A stretch of DNA of 64,000 nucleotides from a virus. The translations under genes and the position numbers were made by a program. Below are positions 35,636 through 63,851 of the stretch, one piece after another. The notes beneath the pieces are model-generated. The model saw only the letters and a program-made list of their open reading frames with translations. It had not been told where the DNA came from and searched no databases. The DNA lies in the IMG/VR virus record IMGVR_UViG_3300024518_004461, positions 47,009-111,008 of that record; one strand, 5' to 3'. How positions within the stretch are numbered: the stretch's first letter is position 1; every line of letters starts with the position of its first letter.

Positions 35636-35684
35636 AATAAATGTCCTCCTTTGTGTGTGTGTGTTTCTTACCATCCATATTCGT

Positions 35685-35927: not shown

Positions 35928-36530
35928 TTATTTCCCACCGTGGGGTTCATCTTGTAGAGAGGCAAGAATATCGTCAATCCATACTGTGTTTGATATAAAA
36001 TTGTATAAGCGATTAACCACCCGAAAATCGCCACACTTCTTATTATCCCAGTGAGCTTTTTTGAGGTGAGATGAGTGAAAAGAAAATCCGCACGAGGCAA
36101 TATCTCCCATGACAATTTTATTACCAAAGGAATGTGTTGGAATAGCCTTCCCCCGGTTAGGGAATTTTACTTTCCAAATATATAGAGTGTCTTTGTTATT
36201 GTTTTTTTCTATGTTTGTCGCTAGCGTTTCTAAGGAACCAGTTGTAGGCAAGTGATCATCGTCATCTAAGAACATTATCCATCCATTCTCTATTTCTTTA
36301 TACATCTCATTAAAATATAAATTATATGGAAAATGTTTAAAATTTTTCTTTTTTTCTCTCTTTACCTGTATGTAATCGGTGGAATTTATATATCCTAGTG
36401 ATGACTCATTATCTATACATAAAATATGACGATAATTTTTATAACTCTGTGAGGAAACACTTTCTTCACACTTTATAAAATACTCTTTACGGTGTGTCCT
36501 TGTAAGTATGTTTATTAAAGGACGCTTCAT
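35928..36530 (-). CDS. Glycosyltransferase, GT2
   Basis: About 200 residues from ATG 36530 (MKRPLINILTRTHRKEYF); longer frames would run into the tRNA. NILTRTHRKEYFIKCEESV is the donor-binding start, HILCIDNESS follows, and WIMFLDDDDHLPTTGSLETL carries the metal-binding DDD. It is separated from the main glycan island by the nuclease-tmRNA region. Confidence 0.75.
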   Translation of the reverse strand: MKRPLINILTRTHRKEYFIKCEESVSSQSYKNYRHILCIDNESSLGYINSTDYIQVKREKKKNFKHFPYNLYFNEMYKEIENGWIMFLDDDDHLPTTGSLETLATNIEKNNNKDTLYIWKVKFPNRGKAIPTHSFGNKIVMGDIASCGFSFHSSHLKKAHWDNKKCGDFRVVNRLYNFISNTVWIDDILASLQDEPHGGK

Positions 36531-36540
36531 ATTCATATAA

Positions 36541-36612
36541 GCGAATGGCGGGGTTCGAACCCGCAACTTTCAGATTGGAAATCTGACACTCTGCCAGTTG
36601 AGCTACATTCGC
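36541..36612 (-). tRNA. tRNA-Gly (TCC)
   Basis: A complete cloverleaf: acceptor GCGAATG/CATTCGC, D-arm GCTC/GAGT, anticodon stem TCAGA/TCTGA with loop TTTCCAA (anticodon TCC), T-arm GCGGG TTCGAAC CCCGC. The discriminator base is U and CCA is not encoded. It reads GGA codons, common in an AT-rich genome. Confidence 0.93.
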
Positions 36613-41769: not shown

Positions 41770-42003
41770 TTATGATTCTTTTTGTATTTCCGATAACATA
41801 AAGTTCTCGGTTGAACCATCTGTTTTACGAATGCGAGCAAATACAAAACAACGATTTGCCCTCATCTTTTCATTATAAATTTTTATTATATAACCATATT
41901 CTTTGGTATTCCCTAGGTGAGCCCACGAAACTAAATCACCAACCTTAAAAATATCTAAATATCGGCTACCAAAGGCATCGCCATCTTCTACTTGTTTGCC
42001 CAT
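41770..42003 (-). CDS. SH3/KOW-like small protein, stray member of the array family
   Basis: About 77 residues from ATG 42003. FKVGDLVSW...YGYIIKIYNE and the later FARIRKTDGS follow the family layout seen at 52367-58815 (xxGDLV, then YG(I/V)(I/V)xx), but the C-terminal ELIAKAK is replaced. It is a separate copy about 10 kb from the array. Confidence 0.65.
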   Translation of the reverse strand: MGKQVEDGDAFGSRYLDIFKVGDLVSWAHLGNTKEYGYIIKIYNEKMRANRCFVFARIRKTDGSTENFMLSEIQKES

Positions 42004-42449
42004 TGAATATAGGTATAAACACACTTGGCTGTTAAGTCATTATACCTCTCCTCACTATAATATAATGATAAGCGATCTGCTAGTTTCTTTCCTCGTCGCC
42101 ATGCTTCGAGTTCTTCCGATATGCAATCCACTTTATATTTGGGGCTACGCGCTAATTGTTTATTAGTGGTGGCATAAGCATACATCCTTGCTGTGGCTGG
42201 ATATGCTTTCTCGTAGTTTTCCCAGTTTGATTGAATAAGCAAGTGACCACATTCATGTAATAAAGAATAAAATTGTTTTTCTATTCCTTGGCGTGTGCTT
42301 ATGTTTATAAGCTTGCTAGATGGTAACATTTCGTCTTGATTAAGATAATCTAGATCAAGTGTCCACCCTTTTTTAATAAGCCACAACGTAAGCTCGCCCA
42401 TTCCGGCTTCAAATAGTTTCTTTTCTAGTTCCTTGTCTAATATAGTCAT
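41988..42449 (-). CDS. Small zincin-like protein
   Basis: About 153 residues from ATG 42449 with GGAGG directly upstream. YSLLHECGHLLIQSNWENYE (about 61-80) carries an HExxH-type zinc motif (HECGH). ISEELEAWRRGKKLADRL follows with possible Glu ligand. Similar short zincins occur in many phages without known substrate. A strong promoter is at 42475. Confidence 0.68.
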   Translation of the reverse strand: MTILDKELEKKLFEAGMGELTLWLIKKGWTLDLDYLNQDEMLPSSKLINISTRQGIEKQFYSLLHECGHLLIQSNWENYEKAYPATARMYAYATTNKQLARSPKYKVDCISEELEAWRRGKKLADRLSLYYSEERYNDLTAKCVYTYIQWANK

Positions 42450-47465: not shown

Positions 47466-47489
47466 AAAAAAAAGGGGGCTATTGCCCCC
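47466..47489 (-). terminator. Rho-independent terminator
   Basis: On the minus strand GGGGGC-AATA-GCCCCC is followed by eight T. It ends the transcript containing the barrel protein gene. Confidence 0.9.
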
Positions 47490-48248: not shown

Positions 48249-48329
48249 TTATTTATTGCGCGAACGCAAATAAAAAAATGTTCCTACAAGTCCTACGACT
48301 ATAAGAGCACCAATGACTTCAACACTCAT
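48249..48329 (-). CDS. 26-residue membrane peptide
   Basis: MSVEVIGALIVVGLVGTFFY followed by LRSRNK: a single transmembrane helix with a basic end. AAGGAG 5 nt before the ATG, which overlaps the end of the 48319 gene. The longer frame from 48446 is only the shadow of that gene. Confidence 0.6.
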   Translation of the reverse strand: MSVEVIGALIVVGLVGTFFYLRSRNK

Positions 48330-48537
48330 TCTTCTTCTCCTTTTGAGCAAATAGCTCAAGCTCGGGCTCATCCATATCCATCCAAAACGAAAGCTTTTCT
48401 TTCGCCCAGTGTGCATAGACACCCATCTTATTTCCGCCATTAACATAAGGATTTGGTCCTGTTTTCAGCACCAACCCATAATCACCGCAAGCGGAAACTA
48501 TCATATCTCCAATTTTGAATCTATTCCTGTTCATCAT
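48319..48537 (-). CDS. SH3/KOW-like small protein, stray member of the array family
   Basis: A 72-residue protein: FKIGDMIVSACGDYGLVLKT, later VYAHWAKEK and ELELFAQKEK. The order (F-x-I-GD, YG-L-V, W, ELx(L/I)) matches the array family at 52367-58815. It lies about 4 kb from the array, between the Cys-rich peptide and membrane peptides. Confidence 0.68.
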   Translation of the reverse strand: MMNRNRFKIGDMIVSACGDYGLVLKTGPNPYVNGGNKMGVYAHWAKEKLSFWMDMDEPELELFAQKEKKNEC

Positions 48538-48823: not shown

Positions 48824-50080
48824 TTAGAATTGATCTTCTTCAGTAGAGTTTATTAATGCTAAAGTTGAAGATTCTCCACCACTAATAATCTGTGAAACCC
48901 TATCAAAATAGCCTGTACCGACTTCTCGTTGGTGCTTTACAGCAGTAAATCCATTATGAACTTGATCAAATTCTTTTTGTTGCAATTCAGAATAAGCAGT
49001 CATCCCTAAATCTTTATAATCCCTAGCCAAAGAAAACATACTATAATTTAATGAATGGAATCCAGCTAGAGTGACAAACTGGAATTTGTATCCCATCCTT
49101 TCTAGAGAATTTTGGAACATCGCAATTGTATATTTGTCTAAATGCTTTTCCCAATTAAAAGATGGGGAGCAGTTATAAGCCAATAATTTATCTGGAAATT
49201 TCGAATGTATTGCATCGGCAAATTTCTTTGCCTCCTCAAGTGAGGGAGTTGAAGTCTCAAGCCATAGCAAATCGGCGAAAGGAGCATAAGCTAAACCACG
49301 AGCGATCCCCATTTCTAAACCACCTGTGATTTTATAAAATCCCTCCGGTGTTCTTTCGCCAGTCATAAATTTATGATCTCGCTCATCCACATCAGAGGTA
49401 ATAAGCTTCGCGCTATTGGCATCAGTGCGAGCAATCAACACAGTTGGAGTGTCGCACACATCAGCCGCCAATCTTGCCGCAGTCAAGGTACGAATAAATT
49501 GGCTTGTTGGAACAAGAACTTTTCCGCCCATATGCCCGCATTTCTTTTCAGAAGCCAACTGATCTTCGAAGTGTACACCCGCCGCGCCAGCCTCAATCAT
49601 TCCCTTCATCAACTCATAAGCGTTCAGCGGTCCACCAAAGCCCGCTTCAGCGTCCGCAACGATTGGCGCATAATAATCAATTTGATTATTTCCTTCAACA
49701 CTTTCGATTTGGTCGGCTCTCTGAAAAGCTTTATTAATTTTCTTAACAACTTGTGGAACACTGTTCGCTGGATAAAGACTTTGATCAGGATACATGTCAC
49801 CAGCAAGGTTTGCGTCAGCCGCAACTTGCCAGCCACTAAGATAGATTGCTTTCAATCCAGCTTTGACCTGTTGTACCGCTTGGTTTCCCGTAAGGGCTCC
49901 TAGGGCCCGCACAGCGTCTTTTTTATTTAGTAAGTCCCATAACTTTTCGGCTCCATCTTTAGCAAGGGTATATTCAATTTTCTTGCTCCCTCTAAGTTCA
50001 AGCACGTCCTTTTTATTATAGGATTTCTCAATTCCATTCCATCTATTTATCATTGGTAAATGTTCCCCCCAATCATCCAC
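48824..50080 (-). CDS. aceA: Isocitrate lyase
   Basis: A 418-residue protein of normal bacterial length. [20 protein letters not shown] and [14 protein letters not shown] (N-terminus), [20 protein letters not shown], and the catalytic loop [16 protein letters not shown] (KKCGHMGGK, about 180). [12 protein letters not shown] carries metal-binding Asp residues and YNCSPSFNW is conserved. It splits isocitrate to succinate and glyoxylate. All catalytic blocks look intact. GTG 50080 overlaps the aceB end; ATG 50053 with GGGGGGAA upstream is an alternative start. Normally a cellular gene; here it is in a phage operon with malate synthase. Confidence 0.92.
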
Positions 50081-51569
50081 ATAAATTATCGTAACACTCT
50101 AAAGTCAGAAAGTCAATTATTTCCTCACTAAAGCATAACTTATTTAGAATTATACTTGTTTCTTCAAACTTTTTGTAGTGTTCAAATTTTTTTATTTCAG
50201 AGTTTATCACCAATCCAAGATATTTGTTTGTGACCTGCTTTCCATTAGATAAATATATTTTGTGTTTTCGCCACTGCCAAATTTGGGCTCTAGAGATTTC
50301 TGCCGTGGCAGCATCTTCCATAAGATTATCAATTGGGACACATCCATTACCATTTATCCAAGAATTAATATATTGAAAGGCAATAGATATATTTTTTCTT
50401 AAAGCAAAATCAGTACACGGACCTTTTGGAGCCCGCAAGAGATCAGAAGATTCAATAGAATAATTTAAACAAAGTTGTTTATCAATTTGGTTGTCGGCTG
50501 GCATATGTTCATCAAAAATATCTTTAGCAATATCAACTAAAAAAGGATGAGCAACCCAAGTACCATCATGTCCGTCCTGAACCTCACGTAATTTGTCAGC
50601 CTTTACTTTTCTCATCGCAATATCATTTGCTTCCGGGTCGTCCTTGATTGGTATTTGTGCTGCCATTCCTCCAATCGCGTGAGCGCCACGTTTATGACAA
50701 GTCTGTATCAATAGTTGTGTATAGGATCGCATAAAGTGCTGTGTCATTCCTACTTCATCACGATCAGGTAATACCGCGTCTCGAACATGAGAAAGCGTTT
50801 TTATAAAACTAAAAATATAATCCCATCGCCCGCAGTTTAATCCAGCAGAATGTGCTTGTAACTCATAAAGTATTTTATCCATTTGAAAGGCTGCGGGTAA
50901 TGTCTCAATAAGAACGGTTGCCCTAATTGTTCCTAGTGGGAGATCAAAAGATTTTTCAGAAAAAGAAAAAATATCACTCCAAAGGGCGGCTTCCAAATAG
51001 TCCTCAATCTTGGGTAAATAAAAATATGGTCGTGTTCCGTTTTTTAGAAGTTGTTTATGATTATGAAAAAAGTATAATCCAAAATCAAAAAGACTTGCCG
51101 GAATATTATTATAATTTTTTTCTAACAAGTGTAGTCCGCGAGGTCGAACAAACAGAGTGGCTACTTTTTTATTTAGTTTATATTCCTTCTGTGTTTCGGG
51201 ATCAATAAAGTCTATTTTTTTTCTTACCGCATCATAAAGATTTTGTTGTCCCTCCATACAATTTTCCCAAGTAGGAGAATTAGAATCTTCAAAGTCAGCC
51301 ATGAAAACATTTGCCCCTGAGTTTAGGGCACTGATAATCATTTTCCTAACTGGTGGTCCTGTAATCTCAACTCGTCTATCTAAAATGTCTTCAGGTGGTG
51401 GTAGCACTTTCCAATGTGGATCTTTGCTTTCTACATTCATTATATGTGCTGGTATTTTACCTTTTCGGTTTTGTCGGTTTAGTAATAGTTTTTTAATTTG
51501 TGGCTCAAATCTATCCTGTAAAACATCCAAAAATAATTTGGTGTCATAGGACAAAATATCTTTTGTCAT
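50073..51569 (-). CDS. aceB: Malate synthase A
   Basis: A 498-residue protein, a little shorter than E. coli malate synthase [72 protein letters not shown] (family signature), [20 protein letters not shown] and [16 protein letters not shown] are intact; the catalytic Arg and Asp lie in RATVLIE and [10 protein letters not shown]. It condenses glyoxylate with acetyl-CoA to malate. Its stop overlaps the aceA start by 8 nt, so the two make a complete glyoxylate shunt. Confidence 0.92.
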
Positions 51570-52030: not shown

Positions 52031-52061
52031 TAAAAAAGGCACTCCCCGAAAGAGGAGTGCC
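52031..52061 (-). terminator. Rho-independent terminator
   Basis: On the minus strand GGCACTCC and GGAGTGCC pair (8 bp, loop of 8) and are followed by TTTTTT. It ends the KTSC gene transcript. Confidence 0.9.
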
Positions 52062-52086
52062 CAAAAACATTATAGTTTTTTGTGAG

Positions 52087-52341: not shown

Positions 52342-52370
52342 ATTATACCAGAGGAAAATAGAAAGATCAA
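52342..52370 (-). promoter_or_regulatory. Sigma-70-type promoter
   Basis: TTGATC (52365-52370), 17-nt spacer and perfect TATAAT (52342-52347) on the minus strand, 40 nt before the KTSC start. Confidence 0.75.
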
Positions 52371-52603
52371 GCTTTTTTTACTTTAGATAAAATAATAATT
52401 TTTTCGTGATTTACTTCATGATAAAGTCTTCCTGCGGAGGAAAGAACATTATATTTTAATCGACGCCCGTTGTTCCAGCCACTACCGGGGGGAATTATTT
52501 CTTTAATCATTCCGTAGATATATGGATCTTCTTTATCAGTCCATCGAACGTTTGGCTTTCGAAACATTACCAAATCACCCTTGCTTGCTTTATCATTTAT
52601 CAT
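52367..52603 (-). CDS. SH3/KOW-like array protein 1
   Basis: A 78-residue protein, last in the array transcript. KASKGDLVMFRKPNVRW is the GDLV start strand, YGMIKEIIPPG the second block, and IIILSKVKKA replaces the usual ELIAKAK end. Clearly related but at the divergent end of the family. It overlaps the next copy by 11 nt. Confidence 0.7.
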   Translation of the reverse strand: MINDKASKGDLVMFRKPNVRWTDKEDPYIYGMIKEIIPPGSGWNNGRRLKYNVLSSAGRLYHEVNHEKIIILSKVKKA

Positions 52604-52805
52604 TTTTTGCTCTTGCTAACAAAACAATATGCTTCCCGAGTTCAGGATAAACTTCGCCGTCATGCCACCTTACCATCATATAACATATATCATCGCCATC
52701 AGTAAAAACATTAATAACAATTCCTGTGTGACCTTTCACACCAAGTAAATCTTCACGGTAAGTTACTAGATCTCCAATATTATATATTATATCTTTATGG
52801 ATCAC
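52593..52805 (-). CDS. SH3/KOW-like array protein 2
   Basis: A 70-residue family member: YNIGDLVTYRED, HTGIVINVFTDGDD, MMVRWHDGEVYP, IVLLARAKNDK. All four family blocks are present. Its start lies 28 nt after the stop of copy 3. Confidence 0.75.
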   Translation of the reverse strand: MIHKDIIYNIGDLVTYREDLLGVKGHTGIVINVFTDGDDICYMMVRWHDGEVYPELGKHIVLLARAKNDK

Positions 52806-52833
52806 ATTAATAAATAGATAGTAAAAAACTGTT

Positions 52834-53034
52834 TTAGGATTGATGGCCTCTTTGACCTTTTGCTATAAGATAGAGTTGTCTGGATTGTAGCCATCTTATT
52901 TCCTCATCACTCCAAAGACACTTAATGTTATTGGGCATAACTGCAATAATAATTCCATAGCCACCAGTCTTACTAGACAAGATTGATTTCTGTCTTACGA
53001 GATCTCCTACGGAGAATACGGAAAGTCTTTTCAT
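52834..53034 (-). CDS. SH3/KOW-like array protein 3
   Basis: A 66-residue member: FSVGDLVRQKS, GGYGIIIAVMPNN, IKCLWSDEEIRWL, LYLIAKGQRG. The C-terminus keeps the LIAKG form seen in several copies. Confidence 0.75.
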   Translation of the reverse strand: MKRLSVFSVGDLVRQKSILSSKTGGYGIIIAVMPNNIKCLWSDEEIRWLQSRQLYLIAKGQRGHQS

Positions 53035-53042
53035 ACATATAA

Positions 53043-53264
53043 CTACTTCTTGCCCCGAGAAACTAAATCAATGGAGTGCCCAAACAGCCACGAGGTTGCA
53101 CCACCGCACCATCTTATCTTATACTTGTTCGCGAGAACAGGATGTTTGTGAGGAGCATCTTTACAAACATCAAGAATAATTCCGTACCAATCTTTTTCAT
53201 CAAAGACGGTACTGCTTAGATTAGATTTTATCAAATCGCCTTTATCAAATTCCATCATGCACAC
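53043..53264 (-). CDS. SH3/KOW-like array protein 4
   Basis: A 73-residue member: FDKGDLIKSNL, WYGIILDVCKDAPHKHP, YKIRWCGGATSW, SIDLVSRGKK. The loop between strands is longer than in most copies. Overlaps copy 5 by 10 nt. Confidence 0.75.
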   Translation of the reverse strand: MCMMEFDKGDLIKSNLSSTVFDEKDWYGIILDVCKDAPHKHPVLANKYKIRWCGGATSWLFGHSIDLVSRGKK

Positions 53265-53452
53265 TTCGCCCTGGCTTCTATTTTTAATTGTTCTTCCACT
53301 TCATACATCCACTCGCCATACTCCCAAGCAACTTTATACATCGGTGCTCTCTTGTACGATAAGTGTTCTTGGTATATTATTTCGACAATAACTCCGGTAT
53401 AGGGTCGGAGTGTGTGGCTAACCAGATCGCCGATTTCAAATTTATTTCTCAT
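53255..53452 (-). CDS. SH3/KOW-like array protein 5
   Basis: About 65 residues from ATG 53452, which has AAGGAA upstream. FEIGDLVSHTL, YTGVIVEIIYQEHLSY, YKVAWEYGEWMYEV, LKIEARAKCA. The long frame from 53470 adds residues inside the neighbour. Confidence 0.72.
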   Translation of the reverse strand: MRNKFEIGDLVSHTLRPYTGVIVEIIYQEHLSYKRAPMYKVAWEYGEWMYEVEEQLKIEARAKCA

Positions 53453-53651
53453 TTTTATTTCCTTTCGCAAGTATAATCATGTGTTTGGGAAACTCAAGAG
53501 TCCGCGTATGTGGATTGCCCCACGGAAAGTTTAGCCACCGTACTTCAAGATAGTCACGATCACTGTTTTTACCCGTTAAGACTTCGCAAATATACCCTCG
53601 TCTATTAGGGTGTTTGGTTTCACAAACAAGATCACCCTTTTCAAAAAACAT
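53442..53651 (-). CDS. SH3/KOW-like array protein 6
   Basis: A 69-residue member: FEKGDLVCETKHPN, RGYICEVLTGKN, LEVRWLNFPWGNP, MIILAKGNKNEK. Start shares bases with the stop of the basic 50-residue gene (TGATG). Confidence 0.75.
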   Translation of the reverse strand: MFFEKGDLVCETKHPNRRGYICEVLTGKNSDRDYLEVRWLNFPWGNPHTRTLEFPKHMIILAKGNKNEK

Positions 53652-53803
53652 CAGTATTCCTCCAAGATTTTTTTAATCTTTCTAATCTTTTGTCGCGTCT
53701 TGTTGCGCTTCGTTAATTTATGATCGTGTGCGCCCGCTTTCCGTTTATAAAAAGCATTTGCGTCCCGGCCGCTGTCCCATATTTTTCTTCTATGTTTTCG
53801 CAC
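53651..53803 (-). CDS. 50-residue basic protein within the array
   Basis: GTG start at 53803 inside the end of copy 7. Sequence MRKHRRKIWDSGRDANAFYK, then KAGAHDHKLTKRNKTRQKIR: strongly basic, not of the SH3-like family. Its TGA overlaps the next ATG. It may bind nucleic acid. No homologue recognised. Confidence 0.55.
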   Translation of the reverse strand: MRKHRRKIWDSGRDANAFYKRKAGAHDHKLTKRNKTRQKIRKIKKILEEY

Positions 53804-54008
53804 GAACCACCACCTCTACTACGTCCCAGTTTCCATAACATTTATAAATCCTACAAGGTTTTTCGATATCATGCCATTTAATATCTGCGAACTGCGAACG
53901 ATATTTACCGTTGTCGGGATACTCTCTGCCAAGCTTCACGATGACGCCCAATTCGCGTGTCGTTCTTACCGTCACCAAATCTCCAATATTAAAATCTGTT
54001 GCGTCCAT
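53790..54008 (-). CDS. SH3/KOW-like array protein 7
   Basis: About 72 residues: FNIGDLVTVRTTRE, LGVIVKLGREYPDNGKY, ADIKWHDIEKPCRIY, VVEVVVRAKT. ATG 54008 overlaps the upstream stop (TGATG). Confidence 0.75.
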   Translation of the reverse strand: MDATDFNIGDLVTVRTTRELGVIVKLGREYPDNGKYRSQFADIKWHDIEKPCRIYKCYGNWDVVEVVVRAKT

Positions 54009-54190
54009 CACGCCACCTTTATTAATCCAATCCCACTATGAATATCGGACGTGCCGTTGGACCACCGAACTTTTAAAGCACCTTGATCTGTAAATCCGAA
54101 GACAATACCCCTTCGCATTTTAAAGTATTCATTCTGAGTTTTTATTCGCACCAGATTTCCAACTTTAAATTCTTTATGCACGTCTTTCAC
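54008..54190 (-). CDS. SH3/KOW-like array protein 8
   Basis: Start GTG 54190 (or GTG 54181) within the end of the upstream gene, with GAAGGA just before; no ATG is available near the domain start. FKVGNLVRIKTQNEYFKMRR (GNLV instead of GDLV), GIVFGFTDQGA, LKVRWSNGTSDI, IGLIKVA. The longer frame from 54325 is not needed. Confidence 0.68.
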   Translation of the reverse strand: MKDVHKEFKVGNLVRIKTQNEYFKMRRGIVFGFTDQGALKVRWSNGTSDIHSGIGLIKVA

Positions 54191-54383
54191 TTTTCCTTCG
54201 TCGTCGCAAATTTTTCTCGTTCCCTTCAAGGATAGGAAGCAATTTATTAACATCCACAATAGAAATGGTTCCATTATTTTGTTCAACCATCGCATCGTCA
54301 CCAACCACATCCACAATTCTAACACGGCAGGGGCGATTGTGCAAGCCCATACGAACTTTTGCTATTTCATTTTTCTTAAACAT
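54174..54383 (-). CDS. Divergent SH3-like array protein 9
   Basis: A 69-residue member with altered blocks: FKKNEIAKVRMGL, CRVRIVDVVGDDAMVEQNNG, VDVNKLLPI and an extremely basic tail (NLRRRRKSERRA). It keeps the strand order but not the GDLV or ELIAKAK text, so membership is less certain. It overlaps both neighbours. Confidence 0.62.
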   Translation of the reverse strand: MFKKNEIAKVRMGLHNRPCRVRIVDVVGDDAMVEQNNGTISIVDVNKLLPILEGNEKNLRRRRKSERRA

Positions 54384-54606
54384 TTTTCTTTGCCTTTGCT
54401 ATTAATTTAAGTTTACTAGGTTGAGCCCAGAAGGTTCCATAATTATCTGCCCAACACACTTTTATCATAAGCCCACCAGGACCGGGGCTTGGTACGTCTT
54501 CACCAATCCCCACCACGACACCGAGTTTTTTAGCGAACGAATCCCATGTAATGCGCTCCACAAGATCACCAATTTCTAATTTATAAACATCATTGTTGTA
54601 ACTCAT
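54376..54606 (-). CDS. SH3/KOW-like array protein 10
   Basis: About 76 residues from ATG 54606 (GAGGC upstream): LEIGDLVERITW, LGVVVGIGEDVPSPGPG, IKVCWADNYGTFW, LKLIAKAKKNV. A clear full-length family member. Confidence 0.76.
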   Translation of the reverse strand: MSYNNDVYKLEIGDLVERITWDSFAKKLGVVVGIGEDVPSPGPGGLMIKVCWADNYGTFWAQPSKLKLIAKAKKNV

Positions 54607-54796
54607 TTTTTGCCTCACTAACTAATTCCAGATTTTGTTCCAATAGCCATCGTTTTTTTTCGTTGGCAAAATAAATTTGATATGCATACACTTTGGGGTT
54701 ATCCGGGTGCGCAGTTCGATCTGAAATTTTCATGACAACACCAAAACCAAAATCGCAGAACCTATTCGACGAAACTAAATCTCCAACATTAAACAT
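54590..54796 (-). CDS. SH3/KOW-like array protein 11
   Basis: A 68-residue member: FNVGDLVSSNRFC, FGVVMKISDRTAHPDNP, YQIYFANEKKRWLL, LELVSEAKNELQQ. It starts MFNVGDLV, the shortest possible start before the domain. Overlaps copy 12 by 8 nt. Confidence 0.76.
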   Translation of the reverse strand: MFNVGDLVSSNRFCDFGFGVVMKISDRTAHPDNPKVYAYQIYFANEKKRWLLEQNLELVSEAKNELQQ

Positions 54797-54977
54797 TTTC
54801 TATCTCATTCGCCCAAAGCCAAACCCTTCGACCGTCCGGTAAATGCACAAGCCATTCTGCCGTGGTAATAGCCATTTGTTCGCCTTCACAGGGATTCTTG
54901 CCTTGTTTAATAATAATGCCTAAATCGCTTTCCATATAAACATTAAGTATCTTTACTAAATCGCCAGATTTAAACAT
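54789..54977 (-). CDS. SH3/KOW-like array protein 12
   Basis: A 62-residue member: FKSGDLVKILNVY, LGIIIKQGKNPCEGEQ, EWLVHLPDGRRVWLW. The C-terminal tail is cut short (ANEIENV instead of ELIAKAK). Confidence 0.72.
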   Translation of the reverse strand: MFKSGDLVKILNVYMESDLGIIIKQGKNPCEGEQMAITTAEWLVHLPDGRRVWLWANEIENV

Positions 54978-55170
54978 TTACAAATTCCTCCAATTCCCAC
55001 CCTAGATACCACGAATCGACTCCGACCAAGCAACGAAGAAAGTAGGACCATTGACCACCAGTTTGAGAAGTGCTTGTAACAACGCCATAATCATCCTCTC
55101 CATTAGTGCGCGTTTTTACTTTAACCATGTCGCCCACATCAAAAACTTTAATACCTAACCAATCATGCAT
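54970..55170 (-). CDS. SH3/KOW-like array protein 13
   Basis: About 66 residues from ATG 55170 (AAGGA upstream): FDVGDMVKVKTRTNG, YGVVTSTSQTGGQ, FLRCLVGVDSWYLGW, LEEFVNV. The start MHDWLG recurs in copy 18 (MHDWDA), a sign of shared origin of these two. Confidence 0.72.
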   Translation of the reverse strand: MHDWLGIKVFDVGDMVKVKTRTNGEDDYGVVTSTSQTGGQWSYFLRCLVGVDSWYLGWELEEFVNV

Positions 55171-55402
55171 TTGATTTTCCTTTCGCAAGCAAATTTAATT
55201 CATTCGTCCAGATGCGCCAGCTTGAGCCAGGATGCCCCTCACATTCTTCATGCTTGAGCCACGTAACGATTGCGATCTTAGTCTCAACGCCTCCACAGAC
55301 TTGCTCAAAGCCATTATAGCCCCATCCAGTGAAGACACCTTGTGAACCAGGAGCTTGAATGTCTTCCACAAGATCACCAATACAAAATTCTTCAGGATTC
55401 AC
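55163..55402 (-). CDS. SH3/KOW-like array protein 14
   Basis: A 79-residue member with GTG start 55402: FCIGDLVEDIQAPG, QGVFTGWGYNGF, IAIVTWLKHEECEGH, LNLLAKGKSNA. The W-block loop is long and Cys/His-rich (HEECEGH). Confidence 0.74.
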   Translation of the reverse strand: MNPEEFCIGDLVEDIQAPGSQGVFTGWGYNGFEQVCGGVETKIAIVTWLKHEECEGHPGSSWRIWTNELNLLAKGKSNA

Positions 55403-55610
55403 GAGACACCTTCCTTATCCATTTATAGGACATAATTTGATTTTCTCCACAAGGCAAGTGAACCACATAATAATCTTTTGACATACCAACTTGTTCAACA
55501 ACAATCCCCAAAGTTCCCGCAAGTATATCCCGACCCTCAATAGGGCCATCCAGAGAATCGATAACCTCAACCAATTCACCGATAATAAAGCTTGACGGAA
55601 ATTTTTTCAC
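55392..55610 (-). CDS. SH3/KOW-like array protein 15
   Basis: A 72-residue member with GTG start: FIIGELVEVIDSLDG (GELV), LGIVVEQVGMSKD, YYVVHLPCGENQIM, IRKVSRES. The C-terminus departs from the family. Confidence 0.7.
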   Translation of the reverse strand: MKKFPSSFIIGELVEVIDSLDGPIEGRDILAGTLGIVVEQVGMSKDYYVVHLPCGENQIMSYKWIRKVSRES

Positions 55611-55834
55611 TTGGACACACTCGCAACTAATTCAAGACTCTTGGCATAATAATGCTTCCGCAAGTTTTTAGTTAATTCGGGCGAGTTTGACTTAATCCAC
55701 TTTATTCGAACAAGTTGCCGACCACTAAACATACCCACGTCTTCTATAATAATGCCAAGCGCATCTTGATTACGCCAAGTTATAGACTTTTTGTTTTTGA
55801 CTAAATCTCCTCTTCGGAATTTATAATTTTTCAT
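55607..55834 (-). CDS. SH3/KOW-like array protein 16
   Basis: A 75-residue member: FRRGDLVKNKKSITWRNQ, LGIIIEDVGMFSGRQ, VRIKWIKSNSPEL, YYAKSLELVASVSK. It pairs with copy 17, which shares YxxxSLELVA. 4-nt overlap on both sides. Confidence 0.76.
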   Translation of the reverse strand: MKNYKFRRGDLVKNKKSITWRNQDALGIIIEDVGMFSGRQLVRIKWIKSNSPELTKNLRKHYYAKSLELVASVSK

Positions 55835-56052
55835 CGTTCTTTCCCCGCAACTAATTCAAGACTTGTATCATAATAGCTTTGACCAAGGTCAACGTAATTC
55901 CCACTTATCCATTTTACTTTTAGGACTTGCGACTTTGCAAATTTCGGCAAACCAATGTCCGTCACCCTAGTCACAACGCCTAGCGTACTTGAATCACGTC
56001 GGTGTAAAACCGCGTGTGTGACAAGATCCCCATATTTAAACATTGTCTTCAT
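55831..56052 (-). CDS. SH3/KOW-like array protein 17
   Basis: A 73-residue member: FKYGDLVTHAVLHRRDSS, LGVVTRVTDIGLPKFAK, LKVKWISGNYVDLG, YYDTSLELVAGKER. Sister of copy 16 judging by the C-terminal YY-x-SLELVA text. Confidence 0.76.
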   Translation of the reverse strand: MKTMFKYGDLVTHAVLHRRDSSTLGVVTRVTDIGLPKFAKSQVLKVKWISGNYVDLGQSYYDTSLELVAGKER

Positions 56053-56287
56053 TTCTTACCACCAATTCAACTTTCCGCGATATACACCGCACTGGATGAG
56101 GCCGACCACACCATAAGATCACAGGCAATACCAACCCCGTGCCAAGTTTATGTTTTCCCGTAACAATTCCATAACAATAATCTTTAGGCAAGTCCTTGTT
56201 GCAGAAATGACGAACAACTAAATCGCCTTTTTTTGGATGCGTCCCACATTTATAAGTGCGGATTCTTTCAGCGTCCCAATCATGCAC
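56036..56287 (-). CDS. SH3/KOW-like array protein 18
   Basis: An 83-residue member: KKGDLVVRHFCNKDLPKD, YGIVTGKHKLGTG, PVILWCGRPHPV, KVELVVRNEDNV. Has a longer N-terminal extension (MHDWDAERIRTYKCGTH). Confidence 0.74.
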   Translation of the reverse strand: MHDWDAERIRTYKCGTHPKKGDLVVRHFCNKDLPKDYCYGIVTGKHKLGTGLVLPVILWCGRPHPVRCISRKVELVVRNEDNV

Positions 56288-56504
56288 TTGCTATCAACTC
56301 CATATCACAAGCCCACGTACCACCAATGTTTCCATTAGGAAATCGTACAGAATAAATTATTTCGCCAGTTATACAAGCCTTTCTTGCCTTCACGACAATA
56401 CACGTATGATGCTCCCAGTCGTCGCCCGCAACATTTAAAGTTCTATTTCTAACCAAGTCACCAGGTTTGTACATTGTTGGTTTATTTTTTTCTTTCACCG
56501 ACAT
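56280..56504 (-). CDS. SH3/KOW-like array protein 19
   Basis: About 74 residues: YKPGDLVRNRTLNV, HTCIVVKARKACITGE, YSVRFPNGNIGGTW, MELIASA. The W in the third block is replaced by F (VRF). 8-nt overlap with copy 18. Confidence 0.74.
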   Translation of the reverse strand: MSVKEKNKPTMYKPGDLVRNRTLNVAGDDWEHHTCIVVKARKACITGEIIYSVRFPNGNIGGTWACDMELIASA

Positions 56505-56509
56505 TCGCA

Positions 56510-56764
56510 TTACCCCGCGATCAACTCAACTTCATCAGGTTTCACGATTGGCTTTTTTCCATTTGGCAAAAGTATCCGCCAATATTTGGACGCACCATTA
56601 TCATCGCGCTTAAGCACAATTCCCAGATAAGGACCATCACCAAAACCAAGTTCACTTGTAGTAAACTCACCAGGACGTTTAATTCGAACCAACCAACCGG
56701 GCTCAAGCGTTTCGCCAATTGTATGCTTTACAAAACTTCCATCTTTAACATTTGATTTAATCAT
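56510..56764 (-). CDS. SH3/KOW-like array protein 20
   Basis: About 84 residues from ATG 56764 (GAGGAAA upstream); the longer frame from 56878 overlaps the next gene entirely. LEPGWLVRIKRPGEF (GWLV), YLGIVLKRDDNGA, WRILLPNGKKPIV, EVELIAG. Family member with extended N-terminus. Confidence 0.7.
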   Translation of the reverse strand: MIKSNVKDGSFVKHTIGETLEPGWLVRIKRPGEFTTSELGFGDGPYLGIVLKRDDNGASKYWRILLPNGKKPIVKPDEVELIAG

Positions 56765-57026
56765 TATTTTTTTCCTCACGGTATCGCGTGTCTTCTGCCA
56801 GCCAATCGGAATGGATTGCCCAAGGATCTCCCCATAATCGTTTTCGAATTGAACTAATCCGATAAGGATTGCTGACAAAGACAGCCGAACGACCGCGATA
56901 GGCGCGGAAGTCGGCTTTGACTTTGTATTTTTTCAACAATTCTAAAAGTTTTGGATCGTCCGCACTTAGATCGTGTCCAAGGAAGAACCAAACGCAACTT
57001 TTGTTTTTTGTTGAAAATTGAGACAT
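56757..57026 (-). CDS. Small protein, not of the array family
   Basis: An 89-residue protein (MSQFSTKNKSCVWFFLGHDL) with YKVKADFRAYRGRSAVFVSN in the middle. No motif recognised. It interrupts the SH3-like series together with the next three genes. Confidence 0.62.
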   Translation of the reverse strand: MSQFSTKNKSCVWFFLGHDLSADDPKLLELLKKYKVKADFRAYRGRSAVFVSNPYRISSIRKRLWGDPWAIHSDWLAEDTRYREEKNND

Positions 57027-57244
57027 TATTTTACAGTCTCGCTTTTAACAGGATTGACCATGTTTTCCATAAAGGCATAATGGCATTGACCATCACTCAA
57101 ATATTGAGAAGCTTGAGCGATATACTTTTGGTGCATATCCCAAACCATTCCATTATTAATGATCTCTTGCATAAACGAGATTTTTTCCTCGCTTGTCATT
57201 GTCTCACTTGAGAACTTGTCCATTTTTTCGATGATTCCAAACAT
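57026..57244 (-). CDS. Small helical phage protein
   Basis: A 72-residue protein: FMQEIINNGMVWDMHQKYIA then ASQYLSDGQCHY. The pattern of a helix, W-x-L/M-H, Y-x2-A, L-x-D/E-G is found in many phage small proteins of unknown role. It abuts the upstream gene. Confidence 0.65.
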   Translation of the reverse strand: MFGIIEKMDKFSSETMTSEEKISFMQEIINNGMVWDMHQKYIAQASQYLSDGQCHYAFMENMVNPVKSETVK

Positions 57245-57286
57245 TGTTTAATTCCTTGGCTTGTTCAGCCGGTTAAAGGGTTAAGA

Positions 57287-57514
57287 TTAAGAGTCCAAAA
57301 ATTCTTTGGTTTCCAAGCAAGTAATATCGCCTGTATGCATACCAAAAGTATGTCCAGTATAAATGTTTAATTGACCTTGATTGTCCGGCAAAACTTCAGC
57401 CCTACCCTTGAATAATTCTTTGACGACAAAATCCAGATCTTCTAGGCTGCTGATCTCTAAACGCAAGTATTTTGCGAGAACTCGAATTTCGTTTTGTTTT
57501 TTTTCGTTTAGCAT
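57287..57514 (-). CDS. Small protein, unknown
   Basis: A 75-residue protein (MLNEKKQNEIRVLAKYLRLE), helical N-terminus, then YTGHTFGMHTGDITCLETKE. No recognised motif. The start is 2 nt from the stop of the membrane peptide gene. Confidence 0.6.
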   Translation of the reverse strand: MLNEKKQNEIRVLAKYLRLEISSLEDLDFVVKELFKGRAEVLPDNQGQLNIYTGHTFGMHTGDITCLETKEFLDS

Positions 57515-57515
57515 G

Positions 57516-57677
57516 TTATTTTTTCCTTGGCTTATTCAGCCACTTTGTTAAGTTAATCTCGCGAGTAATGCTCGCACTGAGGTTGCTTGGTTTGGGGTTA
57601 TCGACTAACGCGATTGCCGACCCGATTGTCAAGACCGTCAAGACCGCGATTAGAATTGCTTTTATTTTTTCTTTCAT
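57516..57677 (-). CDS. 53-residue membrane or secreted peptide
   Basis: MKEKIKAILIAVLTVLTIGS then AIALVDNPKPSN; a basic start and hydrophobic core typical of a signal peptide or single membrane helix. AAGG lies 6 nt upstream. Own promoter at 57695. Function unknown. Confidence 0.6.
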   Translation of the reverse strand: MKEKIKAILIAVLTVLTIGSAIALVDNPKPSNLSASITREINLTKWLNKPRKK

Positions 57678-57694
57678 CCCTTACCTTCACCTAT

Positions 57695-57724
57695 AATATA
57701 GCATTAATTTATTATGTCGGTCAA
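57695..57724 (-). promoter_or_regulatory. Sigma-70-type promoter in the array
   Basis: TTGACC (57719-57724), 18-nt spacer, TATATT (57695-57700) on the minus strand, 18 nt before ATG 57677. It divides the array transcript into an upstream part (copies 21-24) and a downstream part. Confidence 0.65.
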
Positions 57725-57775
57725 GCAGGTAAACCCTACATTATGTCGATTTATTGATCTTTTCTGTGGATACCC

Positions 57776-58045
57776 TTACGAATTTCGACGGGCTTTGGCT
57801 AAAATCACAATTTTTTTGATCCACCAATTTTTTTCGTCCAACAAATACCACATTTCACGGATTTCCCCGGTGTGTTTGAGCCACTTGATTTTAACTCCGG
57901 TATTGTGCAAGCCGGATATTGGATAATTATGTTTTTTAAGTTTTATCACGATCCCGTGAATTGGTTTAATTCTGATTCCGCTGCTAACAAGATCACCAAT
58001 ATCGAATCTGTCAAGGAGTGATTTATTATCTGTTTTTCTTAGCAT
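57776..58045 (-). CDS. SH3/KOW-like array protein 21
   Basis: An 89-residue member: FDIGDLVSSGIRIKP, HGIVIKLKKHNYPI, VKIKWLKHTGEI, IVILAKARRNS. One of the longer copies, with a 14-residue N-terminal lead (MLRKTDNKSLLDRF). Confidence 0.75.
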   Translation of the reverse strand: MLRKTDNKSLLDRFDIGDLVSSGIRIKPIHGIVIKLKKHNYPISGLHNTGVKIKWLKHTGEIREMWYLLDEKNWWIKKIVILAKARRNS

Positions 58046-58310
58046 TGGTTTTGCCTTTTGCTACAATTTCTAATTTTGTTAAGGCACCTGTATTGCGATT
58101 ATTGTAATGGACCCTTGACTGATAATCGTTAATGTATTGAATTGTAACTTCTACTTTTCGTTCTGGGAGGATTGGTGTTTCGTGTGTTCTTATTGCAGAC
58201 ACCACGCCATAGGTTATGAGAGCGTTACGCTTACCGTCTTTTATGCCGCCCCAATTCGTATGCTTTACCAAATCGCCAAGGTCAAATCTGTCAAATATAT
58301 TTTGGCTCAT
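58026..58310 (-). CDS. SH3/KOW-like array protein 22
   Basis: A 94-residue member: FDLGDLVKHTNWGG, YGVVSAIRTHETPI, VTIQYINDYQSRV, LEIVAKGKTNAKKNR. Shares LLDRFD/IFDRFD lead with copy 21, so the two are close relatives. Confidence 0.76.
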   Translation of the reverse strand: MSQNIFDRFDLGDLVKHTNWGGIKDGKRNALITYGVVSAIRTHETPILPERKVEVTIQYINDYQSRVHYNNRNTGALTKLEIVAKGKTNAKKNR

Positions 58311-58570
58311 TTTTTTGCCTCCGCGATTAGTTCGATTAGTTCGATTGAGCTGTCGTCGTTTTCTGTATAGACACTGGTGTATTCATAATCGTTCCATTTG
58401 ATTCTAACTTGATAATAACTGCTATCTTGTGTTGTGCCGTTTCCGCACATTGTTGTTTTAAATTCGGTGGCTCCGACAACGATGCCTAGTTTGTTTGTGT
58501 CGGTTGTGACTGTGTTGCGCCATTCGACAAGATCACCGACTTGGAGTTTGTTGAATTGTTGTTTAGTCAT
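58307..58570 (-). CDS. SH3/KOW-like array protein 23
   Basis: An 87-residue member: LQVGDLVEWRNT, LGIVVGATEFKT, VRIKWNDYEYTS, IELIELIAEAKK. Lead MTKQQFNKLQ matches MTKEEFKNLQ of copy 24; recent duplicates. Confidence 0.77.
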   Translation of the reverse strand: MTKQQFNKLQVGDLVEWRNTVTTDTNKLGIVVGATEFKTTMCGNGTTQDSSYYQVRIKWNDYEYTSVYTENDDSSIELIELIAEAKK

Positions 58571-58815
58571 TATATTTTCTTTGCCGCCGAAACTAATTCT
58601 ATGCGCCCGATTGTTAGATTTCCGTCGCTATATTGACTAACATATGTATCCCCTTTATAGCTCCATAATATCTTCGCGATGTTAATAGTGCGCGAAGCGT
58701 TATTGAACATGCGAGTTACAACGCCAAGCCTGACTGGTTCTATGTATTGTGGTTCGGTTTCTATGCGCTTAACTAAGTCGCCTATTTGTAGATTTTTGAA
58801 TTCTTCTTTTGTCAT
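58570..58815 (-). CDS. SH3/KOW-like array protein 24
   Basis: An 81-residue member and first in the series: LQIGDLVKRIETEP, LGVVTRMFNN, AKILWSYKGDT, IELVSAAKKI. GGAG is 9 nt before the ATG, and the start overlaps the stop of the small upstream frame (ATGA). Confidence 0.77.
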   Translation of the reverse strand: MTKEEFKNLQIGDLVKRIETEPQYIEPVRLGVVTRMFNNASRTINIAKILWSYKGDTYVSQYSDGNLTIGRIELVSAAKKI

Positions 58816-60838: not shown

Positions 60839-60844
60839 GCTTTA

Positions 60845-60874
60845 AGTATCCCATGTTTAGGTTAATGCTGTCAA
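60845..60874 (-). promoter_or_regulatory. Sigma-70-type promoter
   Basis: Perfect TTGACA (60869-60874), 18-nt spacer and GATACT (60845-60850) on the minus strand, just before the VWA gene. Confidence 0.65.
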
Positions 60875-60923
60875 CCATTTATTTAATGGCGCTGTCGATT
60901 TACAGGCTTACCCTGATGACGAT

Positions 60924-61013
60924 TTAACTTGACAAATAATTATCTTTATGATCCGTTATTTTTAACTTGACAAACAAGTATTTTTCTGTATGCCGCATAA
61001 TTACCTTGACAAA
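60924..61013. repeat. Three 13-bp repeats at about 38-bp spacing
   Basis: TTAACTTGACAAA occurs at 60924 and 60962, and TTACCTTGACAAA at 61001 (38 and 39 nt apart). Two copies overlap the 60946 frame. They may be protein-binding sites near the VWA promoter. Confidence 0.6.
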
Positions 61014-61080
61014 GTGTGAATGAGCTAAATACAGCCCCCACATTCCCCCATTCTTCACCACGATCCCTCATTTTACTCAT
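60946..61080 (-). CDS. 44-residue small protein
   Basis: ATG 61080 with a strong GGAGGTG 7 nt upstream; the frame from 61131 is longer but unnecessary. MSKMRDRGEEWGNVGAVFSS then LCQGNYAAYRKIL. No motif recognised. The 61081-61163 stretch before it has no evident gene. Confidence 0.5.
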   Translation of the reverse strand: MSKMRDRGEEWGNVGAVFSSFTLCQGNYAAYRKILVCQVKNNGS

Positions 61081-61163
61081 TTTAAACACCTCCACAACTT
61101 GACGATCCATTACTTGCCAACGTCTTACCACTGTATATCTCTTTAGTTATATAAACCATATCC

Positions 61164-61359
61164 TTATATGCTCTTGTCTTCTTTCTTTCTTATGACATGT
61201 TCTTTAACCCAATTGCTTGTGTTTGCTGTGTCTCTTATCTTACTCCATTTATTATTTTTATCTCCCCAAAAGTAATCACCTTTGCTTTATGGGCTCTCCT
61301 TCTTTAAGATATCTATATCCTTCTGGAAGGGACTTTTGTTCTATGTTTTTATTTTTCAT
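61164..61359 (-). pseudogene. Small phage gene split by a one-base shift
   Basis: Frame 1 starts at ATG 61359 (MKNKNIEQKSLPEGYRYLKE) and stops at 61276 after GEPIKQR. A frame one base away continues as GDYFWGDKNNKWSKIRDTAN to a stop at 61164. Removing one A from the A-run in CAAAGG restores one 64-residue protein with EGYRYLKEGEPIKQGDYFWG, a pattern known from phage small proteins. True mutation, programmed shift or assembly error cannot be told apart. Confidence 0.6.
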
Positions 61360-61365
61360 GCCCGC

Positions 61366-61745: not shown

Positions 61746-61877
61746 CTATCGCTTGTCCTTAAAATTGCGAACGAAGTCCTCAAGGATGAAGATGAGCGCG
61801 AACGCCATGGACGCTACGAACCCGCCAAGGCCTGTTAGCAAAAGTAAAGCAAAAAAGTCTTGTGTTATTATTTCCAT
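61746..61877 (-). CDS. 43-residue membrane protein
   Basis: ATG 61877 has GGAGGTG 7 nt upstream and an AACTATTTA motif 30 nt upstream. MEIITQDFFALLLLTGLGGF then VASMAFALIFILEDF and a basic tail. One long membrane helix. Confidence 0.62.
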   Translation of the reverse strand: MEIITQDFFALLLLTGLGGFVASMAFALIFILEDFVRNFKDKR

Positions 61878-62221
61878 TTTATCCACCTCCAACGTGGTCG
61901 AGTTTGTAAATAGTTTTTTGTTTCCTGATGTTGATATGCTTCTTTCTCTGCTCGGATGTTGTAGTAAGCTAGCGCACCATCGCGAAAGCGAATGTAATTC
62001 TTAATATAGTCGTAGGCATACAGCAGAAAAAATCCCGCGAAGCCCGTTTCGAGGAATTGTTGAAAATGGATAGTCTCGTGCTGCCTGGTCTTGTCGTTTA
62101 TCTCACCCCGGCTGAATACGATAAAACCTAGTGTGATTGCTTCGATGTTGATCGGTGCCACATAAGATAATATCTTTGGTATTCTGGAGTTTTCTATAAA
62201 TATTGGTTTCCAGTTTCTCAT
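61868..62221 (-). CDS. HETIH zincin-like phage protein
   Basis: A 117-residue protein. KTRQHETIHFQQFLETGF (about 45-62) has an HExxH motif; AYYNIRAEKEAYQHQ further on contains a probable Glu ligand. Similar small proteins with this pair occur in many phages. A hydrophobic stretch (GFAGFFLLYAYDYI) follows the motif, so it may be membrane-associated. Confidence 0.7.
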   Translation of the reverse strand: MRNWKPIFIENSRIPKILSYVAPINIEAITLGFIVFSRGEINDKTRQHETIHFQQFLETGFAGFFLLYAYDYIKNYIRFRDGALAYYNIRAEKEAYQHQETKNYLQTRPRWRWIKWK

Positions 62222-62237
62222 TCTTTAAGTCCTCTTT

Positions 62238-62346
62238 CTTTCTTTATTACATAATAAAGAAAGCCCCCTCCAAAAGACTTCGGGCTGGACAGGGAAATGA
62301 AACAAACCCATAACACCCGTCGTCCTTTGCAGAGGCTTTCTTTATT
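62238..62346 (-). ncRNA. Structured region with three competing arms (attenuator-like)
   Basis: AATAAAGAAAGCC at 62334-62346 (read on minus) can pair with GGCTTTCTTTATT at 62253-62265 (13 bp). That second arm can instead pair with AATAAAGAAAG at 62238-62248 (11 bp, 4-nt loop). Transcription would meet arm 1, then 2, then 3, so the two hairpins exclude each other. It lies between the DUF262 gene and the HETIH gene; the rest of the spacer holds no gene. Confidence 0.5.
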
Positions 62347-62361
62347 TTGCGCCAAGCGTAA

Positions 62362-63678
62362 CTAATCCACTAAACGGCTTTCTTCTTGAGAAGAAATTGC
62401 TTCCGGCACCATCCTCACCGATGACGGCTTACCTACCGTAGCGGGTGTTGATAGCCGAATCGATAAGAAGTGAGGATCTCTCTTCAATTCACTATACATG
62501 CGTTTAAGAAACATCCCTAACATTTTTAGGCGCACGGATCTTGTCTCTTGATCGTTTTTGCAGTGATGATAATAATCACTAGGATTGATCACTGTCCCAT
62601 GATAAATATCTTTGCCCTCTTGCATTTTGGATTCATCTGACAACTTCTTGTCTAAGCGAGCAATTTCATCGAAAAGACTGCCATGCGACCCCGGCTTAAC
62701 CACGTAACCCTTCATAAAAAGATCACCAATCACACCAACCACAAGGTGACTCATAAATTTCGATATCATTTGTGATGGGGCTCTTGCCGTTTGCTGCTCT
62801 GCCCCCAACATTGTAGCCGTTAAAACGTCTTGTGCAAACTTAAGGGCCTTTTGATCGTAGGGACAACCAGGATCACTCATTTCCAAATAACCCAAACCTT
62901 CATTATAAAACTTTTCTAAGTCTGTCTTCTTGAGCCCTTTATACCGCCTCAATTTGCTGCTTCCTGGCTGTGAAATTTCCTCCTGATAGGTTTGTAGCAA
63001 TAATTTTGCTACCAGCTCATCGTCCCCCATGCGTGAGAGCGGCTCTGCTTTTAGGAGACGCAATAAGCCAGGTCTTAAATTTTTAGACGTATCCCTCACT
63101 ACTTGGGCAATAGGGGTATCTCGGCAGTTCCGCAATTCTTGAGGAACAAGCGCAACACCGGCATTTATACGTTCAAACGTCAAAGCCAGTTCAGGACGAG
63201 TCAAGCCCACAAGCTCTACCCATGGAAGCGTACAGTCTGTCAAACGATCCTTAAGGCGTTGCGGTATTTCTTTATAAAAGTTATTGATCAGTTCCACCGA
63301 CTTTCCATCTGCGTCTGTAAACTCACCCGTAACACTAACTTTATTGTTCATAAAATCCGCGATTGCAGCCAGTCGATTGCGCCCATCAAGACCTGTAAAT
63401 TTAAACCCCTGACCATTGAAAGACTTATAATAGTTTGCTGAGTCAGTTTCTCCTCGGGCTTCGCAAGAAGCCAAAGACTCTTCAATACTCACCGCAATTA
63501 TAGGTTGCAAGGCAAAACCTGCCGTTGCACTTGATAAAAACTGTGAACTTTGTGCTCGGGTCCAAACTGGTCTACGTTGTAGCCCCTCTGGAAAGACTAT
63601 CTGTCCTGAATTCATCAGGTCAGCTACTTCGGGGAGAGATACTTCTCTCACCTTTTTTTTGTTACTAAAAAACGCCAT
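62362..63678 (-). CDS. DUF262-type protein (GmrSD/ParB-like N-terminal nuclease fold)
   Basis: A 438-residue protein. FTGLDGRNRLAAIADFMNNK (about 100-119) is the DGxxR motif of DUF262, and LTFERINAGVALVPQELRNC (about 168-187) the second family block. DUF262 proteins include type IV restriction enzymes and other DNA-defence factors; a GmrD-type HNH half (DUF1524) is not evident in the C-terminus. Possible defence or anti-defence role. Strong promoter upstream. Confidence 0.75.
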   Translation of the reverse strand: MAFFSNKKKVREVSLPEVADLMNSGQIVFPEGLQRRPVWTRAQSSQFLSSATAGFALQPIIAVSIEESLASCEARGETDSANYYKSFNGQGFKFTGLDGRNRLAAIADFMNNKVSVTGEFTDADGKSVELINNFYKEIPQRLKDRLTDCTLPWVELVGLTRPELALTFERINAGVALVPQELRNCRDTPIAQVVRDTSKNLRPGLLRLLKAEPLSRMGDDELVAKLLLQTYQEEISQPGSSKLRRYKGLKKTDLEKFYNEGLGYLEMSDPGCPYDQKALKFAQDVLTATMLGAEQQTARAPSQMISKFMSHLVVGVIGDLFMKGYVVKPGSHGSLFDEIARLDKKLSDESKMQEGKDIYHGTVINPSDYYHHCKNDQETRSVRLKMLGMFLKRMYSELKRDPHFLSIRLSTPATVGKPSSVRMVPEAISSQEESRLVD

Positions 63679-63821
63679 ATTTATTGGCTCCTTAAAAGCA
63701 TTCTCGTTTTAATTTTCTTTCCTTTTTTATTTTCAGAAAAGATTCGAGATTGCTGGTTATTCAGGTTGTCAATTGCAGATACCTTTGATCTACTTATTGC
63801 TTCCCCTACTGTCTAAAAAAG

Positions 63822-63851
63822 ATTATCCCACAACTTGCTATAAACTGTCAA
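63822..63851 (-). promoter_or_regulatory. Sigma-70-type promoter
   Basis: Perfect TTGACA (63846-63851), 18-nt spacer and GATAAT (63822-63827) on the minus strand, within the end of the upstream gene and 144 nt before the DUF262 start. Confidence 0.78.

Follow-up and report, generated by a model that had tools for sequence, protein, structure and literature searches.

The locus described here raises the question of whether an intergenic RNA with three arms, in which the middle arm can pair with either neighbour, is a switch between two genes or a structure of another kind. The RNA is encoded in the 111,008-base virus record IMGVR_UViG_3300024518_004461. The stretch analysed (the window) is 64,000 nt long and corresponds to bases 47009-111008 of that record. 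Nearly all of its larger ORFs lie on the minus strand (46 of 48 that are at least 150 aa long), and a late-sigma-like gene (phrog_234, E 1e-4) and a PhoH-like ATPase are also encoded in the record. A long minus-strand run of ORFs at 8677-30734 resembles, by eye, sugar-nucleotide, glycosyltransferase and methyltransferase genes and may represent an extensive phage cluster for surface glycans. The element itself lies in a 140-nt gap between a GmrSD_N-like gene (62362-63678, minus strand) and a gene for a zincin-type protease (61868-62221, minus strand). Because both flanking genes are on the minus strand, the RNA of the gap is read from 62361 to 62222 and the order of the element in RNA is from 62346 to 62238. 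A search of phage-collection DNA with 61800-63700 gave zero matches, and no published work on this site was found, judging from titles.

The three arms are exact, as the original prediction of near-perfect repeats and complements had placed them. The 5' arm (62331-62346, minus strand) has a 13-nt perfect core at 62334-62346 (GGCTTTCTTTATT), which is the exact reverse complement of 62253-62265 (AATAAAGAAAGCC) over 13 of 13 positions. The latter belongs to the middle arm (62253-62268, minus strand), which consists of GGGGGC and then UUUCUUUAUU. Between these two arms are 68 nt (62266-62333, minus strand). The third arm (62238-62249, minus strand) forms a 12/12 inverted repeat with 62252-62263 around a 2-nt centre, and its bases 62238-62248 repeat 11 of the 13 arm bases. 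The 13/13 and 12/12 inverted repeats thus have the middle arm in common, and pairing of this arm with the 5' arm or, through the shared bases 62253-62263, with the third arm is mutually exclusive, as had been proposed. The outer arms also give an 11-bp direct repeat around 87 bp. The arm 11-mer CTTTCTTTATT occurs three times in the 111-kb record, every time at the element, in a count that covered both strands of the window and of the three other stretches of the record.

A lone 13-nt inverted repeat is not rare in such a window: among 200 second-order Markov simulations, 44 contained one with arms of at least 13 nt. Not one of the 200 contained a pair of inverted repeats (arms of at least 11 nt) with a common arm. 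Shuffles that kept composition, and so allowed for the purine-rich leader, gave a third-arm match of at least 11 nt in about 0.25% of cases (50 of 20,000 mononucleotide and 46 of 20,000 Markov shuffles). The longest match of this type among 50 other gene leaders is 8 nt. A chance origin of the third arm, at about 1 in 400, is therefore unlikely.

The 5' and middle arms and the stretch between them are predicted to fold as a single rod (-46.6 kcal/mol, z -7.3), a stability that none of 200 shuffles equalled. The original prediction that the loop of about 68 nt folds on its own is borne out (-27.4 kcal/mol, z -3.18, equalled by 1 of 200 shuffles), and this fold extends the rod. The predicted stems are 16, 8, 5 and 3 bp long, and only a small internal loop separates the 16-bp and 8-bp stems, which gives a long near-continuous duplex. 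The base of the rod pairs GCCUCU with GGGGGC and is directly followed by the U-rich tract UUUCUUUAUU (8 U of 10), which is complemented by an A-rich tract on the opposite arm. In a scan of 22,128 overlapping 100-nt windows from both strands of the record the long hairpin ranks first for structure, with a z of -6.57 versus -5.46 for the second-ranked window. Two canonical terminators (52037-52062 and 47474-47489) rank third and fifth. These terminators flank, with other ORFs in between, a pair of adjoining minus-strand genes for isocitrate lyase and malate synthase at 48824-51569 (Pfam ICL E 7.4e-107; MS_TIM-barrel E 4.4e-102). The occurrence of aceAB in ocean viromes has been reported (PMC4053976).

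The fold prefers the transcribed strand. The same window folds at -46.6 kcal/mol on the minus strand versus -34.9 kcal/mol on the plus strand, and a slightly longer plus-strand stretch folds at -36.6. All four G-U wobble pairs of the predicted rod are on the minus strand and the plus-strand fold has none; with four cases, 1 in 16, this bias is suggestive only.

A geometry of attenuators and riboswitch-like switches had been attributed to the three arms. Minus-strand transcription makes the 5' arm before the middle arm and the third arm last, and in folds of the growing transcript the rod is zipped to its base during synthesis of the U-tract, ahead of the third arm. The third arm appears only once the long hairpin has formed, so the short hairpin cannot be an antiterminator of the long one, and an attenuator in the usual sense, in which the antiterminator comes first, is not supported on this strand. 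The plus-strand order would suit an attenuator, but the ORFs found beyond the element in that direction are all short and run antisense to the upstream gene. No U-tract stands behind the short hairpin. The energies are also one-sided, with a preference of about 10 kcal/mol for the rod (-46.6 versus -27.4 plus -9.5, the last value being that of the short hairpin alone). At equilibrium in the full RNA, the 13 rod pairs have probabilities of 0.73-1.0, and those of the short hairpin are about 1.5e-4. A balanced riboswitch with two comparably stable states is rejected on this ground. No Rfam family reaches its gathering score at the element, where the best weak match is to a miRNA family (E 0.27, 18.4 bits versus a cut-off of 56). 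This negative, together with the absence of the element from 82 loci of protease relatives (below), speaks against a known aptamer or conserved sensor. The proposed switch geometry therefore fails on arm order, on the near absence of the short hairpin and on the lack of an Rfam family. Elsewhere in the record Rfam matches a tmRNA at 35357-36010 on the minus strand (529 nt, 89.6 bits, for a model of 374 positions), and this match overlaps one to a permuted tmRNA (56.8 bits). ARAGORN lists only a tRNA-Gly nearby (36540-36612). The stretch is a possible unusual or split phage tmRNA.

The gene upstream of the element (62362-63678, minus strand) encodes 438 aa and is GmrSD_N/DUF262-like, with a Pfam GmrSD_N score of 25.4 bits that is below the cut-off of 33.2; it also matches phrog_2598. 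Among the PADLOC models it matches NsnA (E 2.1e-14) and PD-T4-2_A (E 1.8e-4), and no account of NsnA function was found in the literature. A sigma-70-like promoter precedes the gene at 63822-63851 on the minus strand (TTGACA-18-GATAAT, with TG before the -10 box). As a consensus match only, it agrees at 11 of 12 positions and is the best of 40 matches in 52-64 kb, where shuffles average 27.8 matches. Several TTGACA-like boxes are also present in a gene-poor stretch of 527 nt at 60839-61365. Two distant relatives of the gene, at about 26% identity, are known from the phage collection. That of Alicyclobacillus phage MMB025 was labelled 'DefenseFinder protein' by its depositors, with the category note 'moron, auxiliary metabolic gene and host takeover', and has a hairpin after its stop codon. 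The relative in Synechococcus phage Sf-FS3 is overlapped by the next gene and leaves no gap for a hairpin. No relative was confirmed in viral contigs (13 pattern matches) or genome contigs (40 pattern matches), and none was found in the records of L003-L006 by a search that had no positive control. The upstream gene is likely to be moron-like cargo that has a promoter of its own and sits ahead of the protease and small-ORF genes.

The downstream gene (61868-62221, minus strand) encodes 117 aa with a HETIH motif and matches phrog_15610 'protease' (E 2.1e-22); the relation is also seen in alignment, and phage relatives are annotated as zincin protease. It is preceded by a Shine-Dalgarno-like GAGGA at 62230-62234 on the minus strand. 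In the full fold, Shine-Dalgarno bases 62231-62234 are 66-91% unpaired, and the second and third bases of the protease AUG are 37% and 32% unpaired. No sigma-70-like promoter is found from the rod to the protease start; the nearest same-strand matches (9 of 12) are inside the upstream gene at 62569-62598 and 62810-62838. Control of read-through between two genes had been proposed for the element, and two co-directional genes with a plausible effect of this kind are present. The next gene, however, is the protease relative, and the cluster of tiny membrane proteins that had been named as the target survives in part: two of the three small ORFs past the protease gene look membrane-like, by eye only.

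Small ORFs are also arrayed at 52367-58815 on the minus strand, where 21 of them (62-94 aa) form two runs and mostly abut or overlap. Their common features are a GDLV-type motif at the N-terminus, a G(I/V)V stretch and, in many cases, an end resembling ELxAxxK; they are diverged tandem paralogs with 14-32% identity to the first. Nine of the 21, and a similar ORF at 56510-56878, gave nothing below E 0.018 in Pfam and PHROGs. The GDLV-type motif recurs in two further ORFs (41770-42024 and 48319-48537). In the related record L010, whose DNA is 94-97% identical, the alignment is broken at several points inside this array. The L010 sequence starts at window position 59994 and stops short of the element site.

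The original prediction had named a lack of conservation of the arms as grounds for refuting it, and among the protease relatives compared the arms are indeed not conserved. The comparison covered 82 loci, drawn from viral contigs (the best 80 of 127 confirmed stretches) and genome contigs (two). For each locus the 140 nt upstream of the match were folded and inverted repeats were sought (seed 9, at most 90 nt apart); 17 of the 82 matches have no start codon at their beginning, and there the stretch only approximates the leader. The element is present in none of the 82, and close relatives of this very junction were not found. No locus has arms of at least 12 nt, the longest being 11 (L094), 10 (L081) and 9 (L064) as compared with 13 and 12 in the window. 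No locus has a z below -3, the lowest being -2.75 (L044) versus -4.14 for the window. In the 65 loci where the match starts at a start codon, an ORF of at least 30 aa ends within 20 nt of the protease start in 60, and from -4 to +3 in 53. Random anchors gave an ORF end within 20 nt in 218 of 1300 cases on the same strand and 275 of 1300 on the other. A gene thus usually abuts the protease gene in its relatives, and together with the absence of the element from these loci this indicates that the rod does not belong to the protease gene as such. Other searches agree in finding the element solely at its site in its own record. No copy was found by pattern searches of viral contigs, or in six related records, where short matches of 17 nt (E 0.03) and 14 nt (E 0.28) are chance-like. 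The phage-collection DNA likewise holds no second copy; a 31-nt match in three Proteus phage records (E 0.4) is chance-like.

The reading that we favour, with a probability of roughly 0.4, is that the rod is a stem-loop closing the GmrSD_N-like transcription unit at its 3' end, a leaky terminator-like structure that gives partial termination and fixes the 3' end. The minus-strand rod would fold as it leaves RNA polymerase, and its base would close while the U-rich UUUCUUUAUU is being made, so that a part of the transcripts ends there. In read-through RNA, the long double-stranded rod would set the 3' end of the upstream message, and RNase III may also cut it. The closed rod would leave the protease Shine-Dalgarno mostly unpaired and read-through RNA would thus be translatable, with the short hairpin arising only once the 5' arm of the rod is gone. 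This reading is favoured by the start of the rod 15 nt past the upstream stop codon and by a hairpin whose GC-rich base runs straight into a U-rich tract (GGGGGC-UUUCUUUAUU), as in intrinsic terminators, with the matching A-rich tract on the opposite arm. The growing-transcript folds, the preference for the minus strand, the promoter and PADLOC matches of the upstream gene, the label and the hairpin of its MMB025 relative and the absence of the element from all 82 protease loci also speak for it. Against it, the rod is about 94 nt long and has a discontinuous U-tract within its stem, unlike the canonical terminators of the window, which are tetraloop hairpins with T-runs. With no promoter match from the rod to the protease start, full termination might also silence the downstream genes, and the other border of a cargo cassette would lie outside the record, which ends at 64000. 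Two terminator scans (loops of 3-8 and of 3-10) do not list the rod, and for this reason we call it terminator-like and not a member of the class. The Sf-FS3 relative without a gap, the only partly free AUG and the small frame discussed below, which would suit an abutting arrangement, also argue against it. Stem-loops that follow a phage gene are a known, ordinary kind of structure. The odd part is the spare arm, which the terminator reading leaves without explanation.

The third arm would gain a role if RNase III or a similar enzyme cut the rod in read-through RNA: once the 5' arm had gone with the upstream message, the middle and third arms could pair and so cap the protease message where it now begins. 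The roughly two turns of near-continuous duplex of RNase III sites are provided by the 16-bp and 8-bp stems, and the predicted fold includes the short hairpin once the 5' part is removed (RNA starts 62333, 62295, 62282 and 62272). The rarity of such an arm in shuffles speaks for this as well. Phages T7 and lambda offer precedents for such putative cleavage, and we regard this course of events as unlikely. A related proposal is that the 5' half of the rod is bound by a ribosome, a protein or a small RNA, or is removed, and that the freed 3' half pairs with the third arm and AAAGAGGACUU, hiding the Shine-Dalgarno and setting protease translation. The 3' strand of the rod can pair with the 5' half of the rod and also with the leader of the protease gene, including its Shine-Dalgarno, so that processing or translation of the front part of the message would govern protease translation. 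In the fold of 62222-62282, bases 62272-62280 (AAGUCUUUU, minus strand) pair with 62227-62235 around the short hairpin and so over the Shine-Dalgarno. The duplex of this strand with the leader has -9.3 kcal/mol, which 1.9% of 1000 shuffles reach, but 3 of 42 other gene leaders pair equally strongly with it. This additional pairing appears for an RNA start at 62282, whereas the Shine-Dalgarno remains open for starts at 62333 (5' arm alone removed), 62295 and 62272. The predicted pairing thus weakly suggests a conditional switch. Given also the preference of about 10 kcal/mol for the rod and a conserved sensor that is not seen, both the occupied and the cut-and-refold versions are quite improbable.

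The gap may also hold a small gene, with the rod as a structure of its coding sequence that hides its own start and couples both genes. A putative frame of 45 aa with a TTG start (62218-62355, minus strand) spans the whole element, ends at -4 relative to the protease start and overlaps the protease gene in an ATGA. An inner GTG at 62316, with AAGGA six bases ahead, would give a 32-aa version. If the small frame is real, the rod lies inside coding sequence and hides the AAGGA of that frame. The abutting ORFs at protease relatives favour such a gene, but its codon score of -0.12 (-0.08 for the 32-aa version) is non-coding-like. Coding pieces average 0.145 and none scores as low as -0.12, and wrong frames average -0.14 with 41% of pieces above -0.12. 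The same stretch reaches -0.001 in another frame, and nine neighbouring small genes range from -0.06 to 0.13. The 45-aa frame also has no tblastn match in the phage collection and none in PHROGs. We hold a small gene to be unlikely too, and marginally more so than the capped message. Functionless palindromes, left by template-switching during replication or by a lost insertion, would account for the absence of the element from all 82 loci and from every other place searched, and for arms that double as a direct repeat. This origin sits poorly with a rod that extends well past the repeats, with G-U pairs confined to the transcribed strand and with a location directly past a stop codon, and it appears improbable. 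A retron or diversity-generating retroelement, considered on account of the inverted arms, is rejected, as PF00078 (reverse transcriptase) gave no match in the 111-kb record, which is possibly a fragment; the control search was positive in 3 of 14 known genomes.

The element can be set beside several known systems. It shares three arms and two exclusive pairings with attenuators and riboswitches and differs from them in its order on the transcribed strand, its one-sided energies, the lack of a conserved sensor and the lack of an Rfam match. The T7 early region and lambda sib hold intercistronic RNase III sites of phages, and a long hairpin with internal loops between co-directional phage genes is common to them and the element. 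Cleavage of the element is putative, and a spare arm that refolds after the cut is not known to be a defining part of those sites. Intrinsic terminators, including the bidirectional ones with an A-tract and a U-tract, are alike in having a hairpin past a stop codon with a GC-rich base, a U-tract after it and an A-tract before it. They have a short loop, whereas here there is a rod of about 94 nt, the U-tract is interrupted and paired and a third arm follows. Moron cassettes of phages consist of a cargo-type gene with its own promoter and a 3' hairpin. The cargo-type gene described here, with its promoter match and its 3' hairpin, resembles them, with the other border out of view since the record ends at 64000. 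Seen in this company, the element illustrates how an uncultivated phage may keep a cargo gene separate from the genes that follow and, if the spare arm works, would offer a compact link between mRNA processing and access to a start site.
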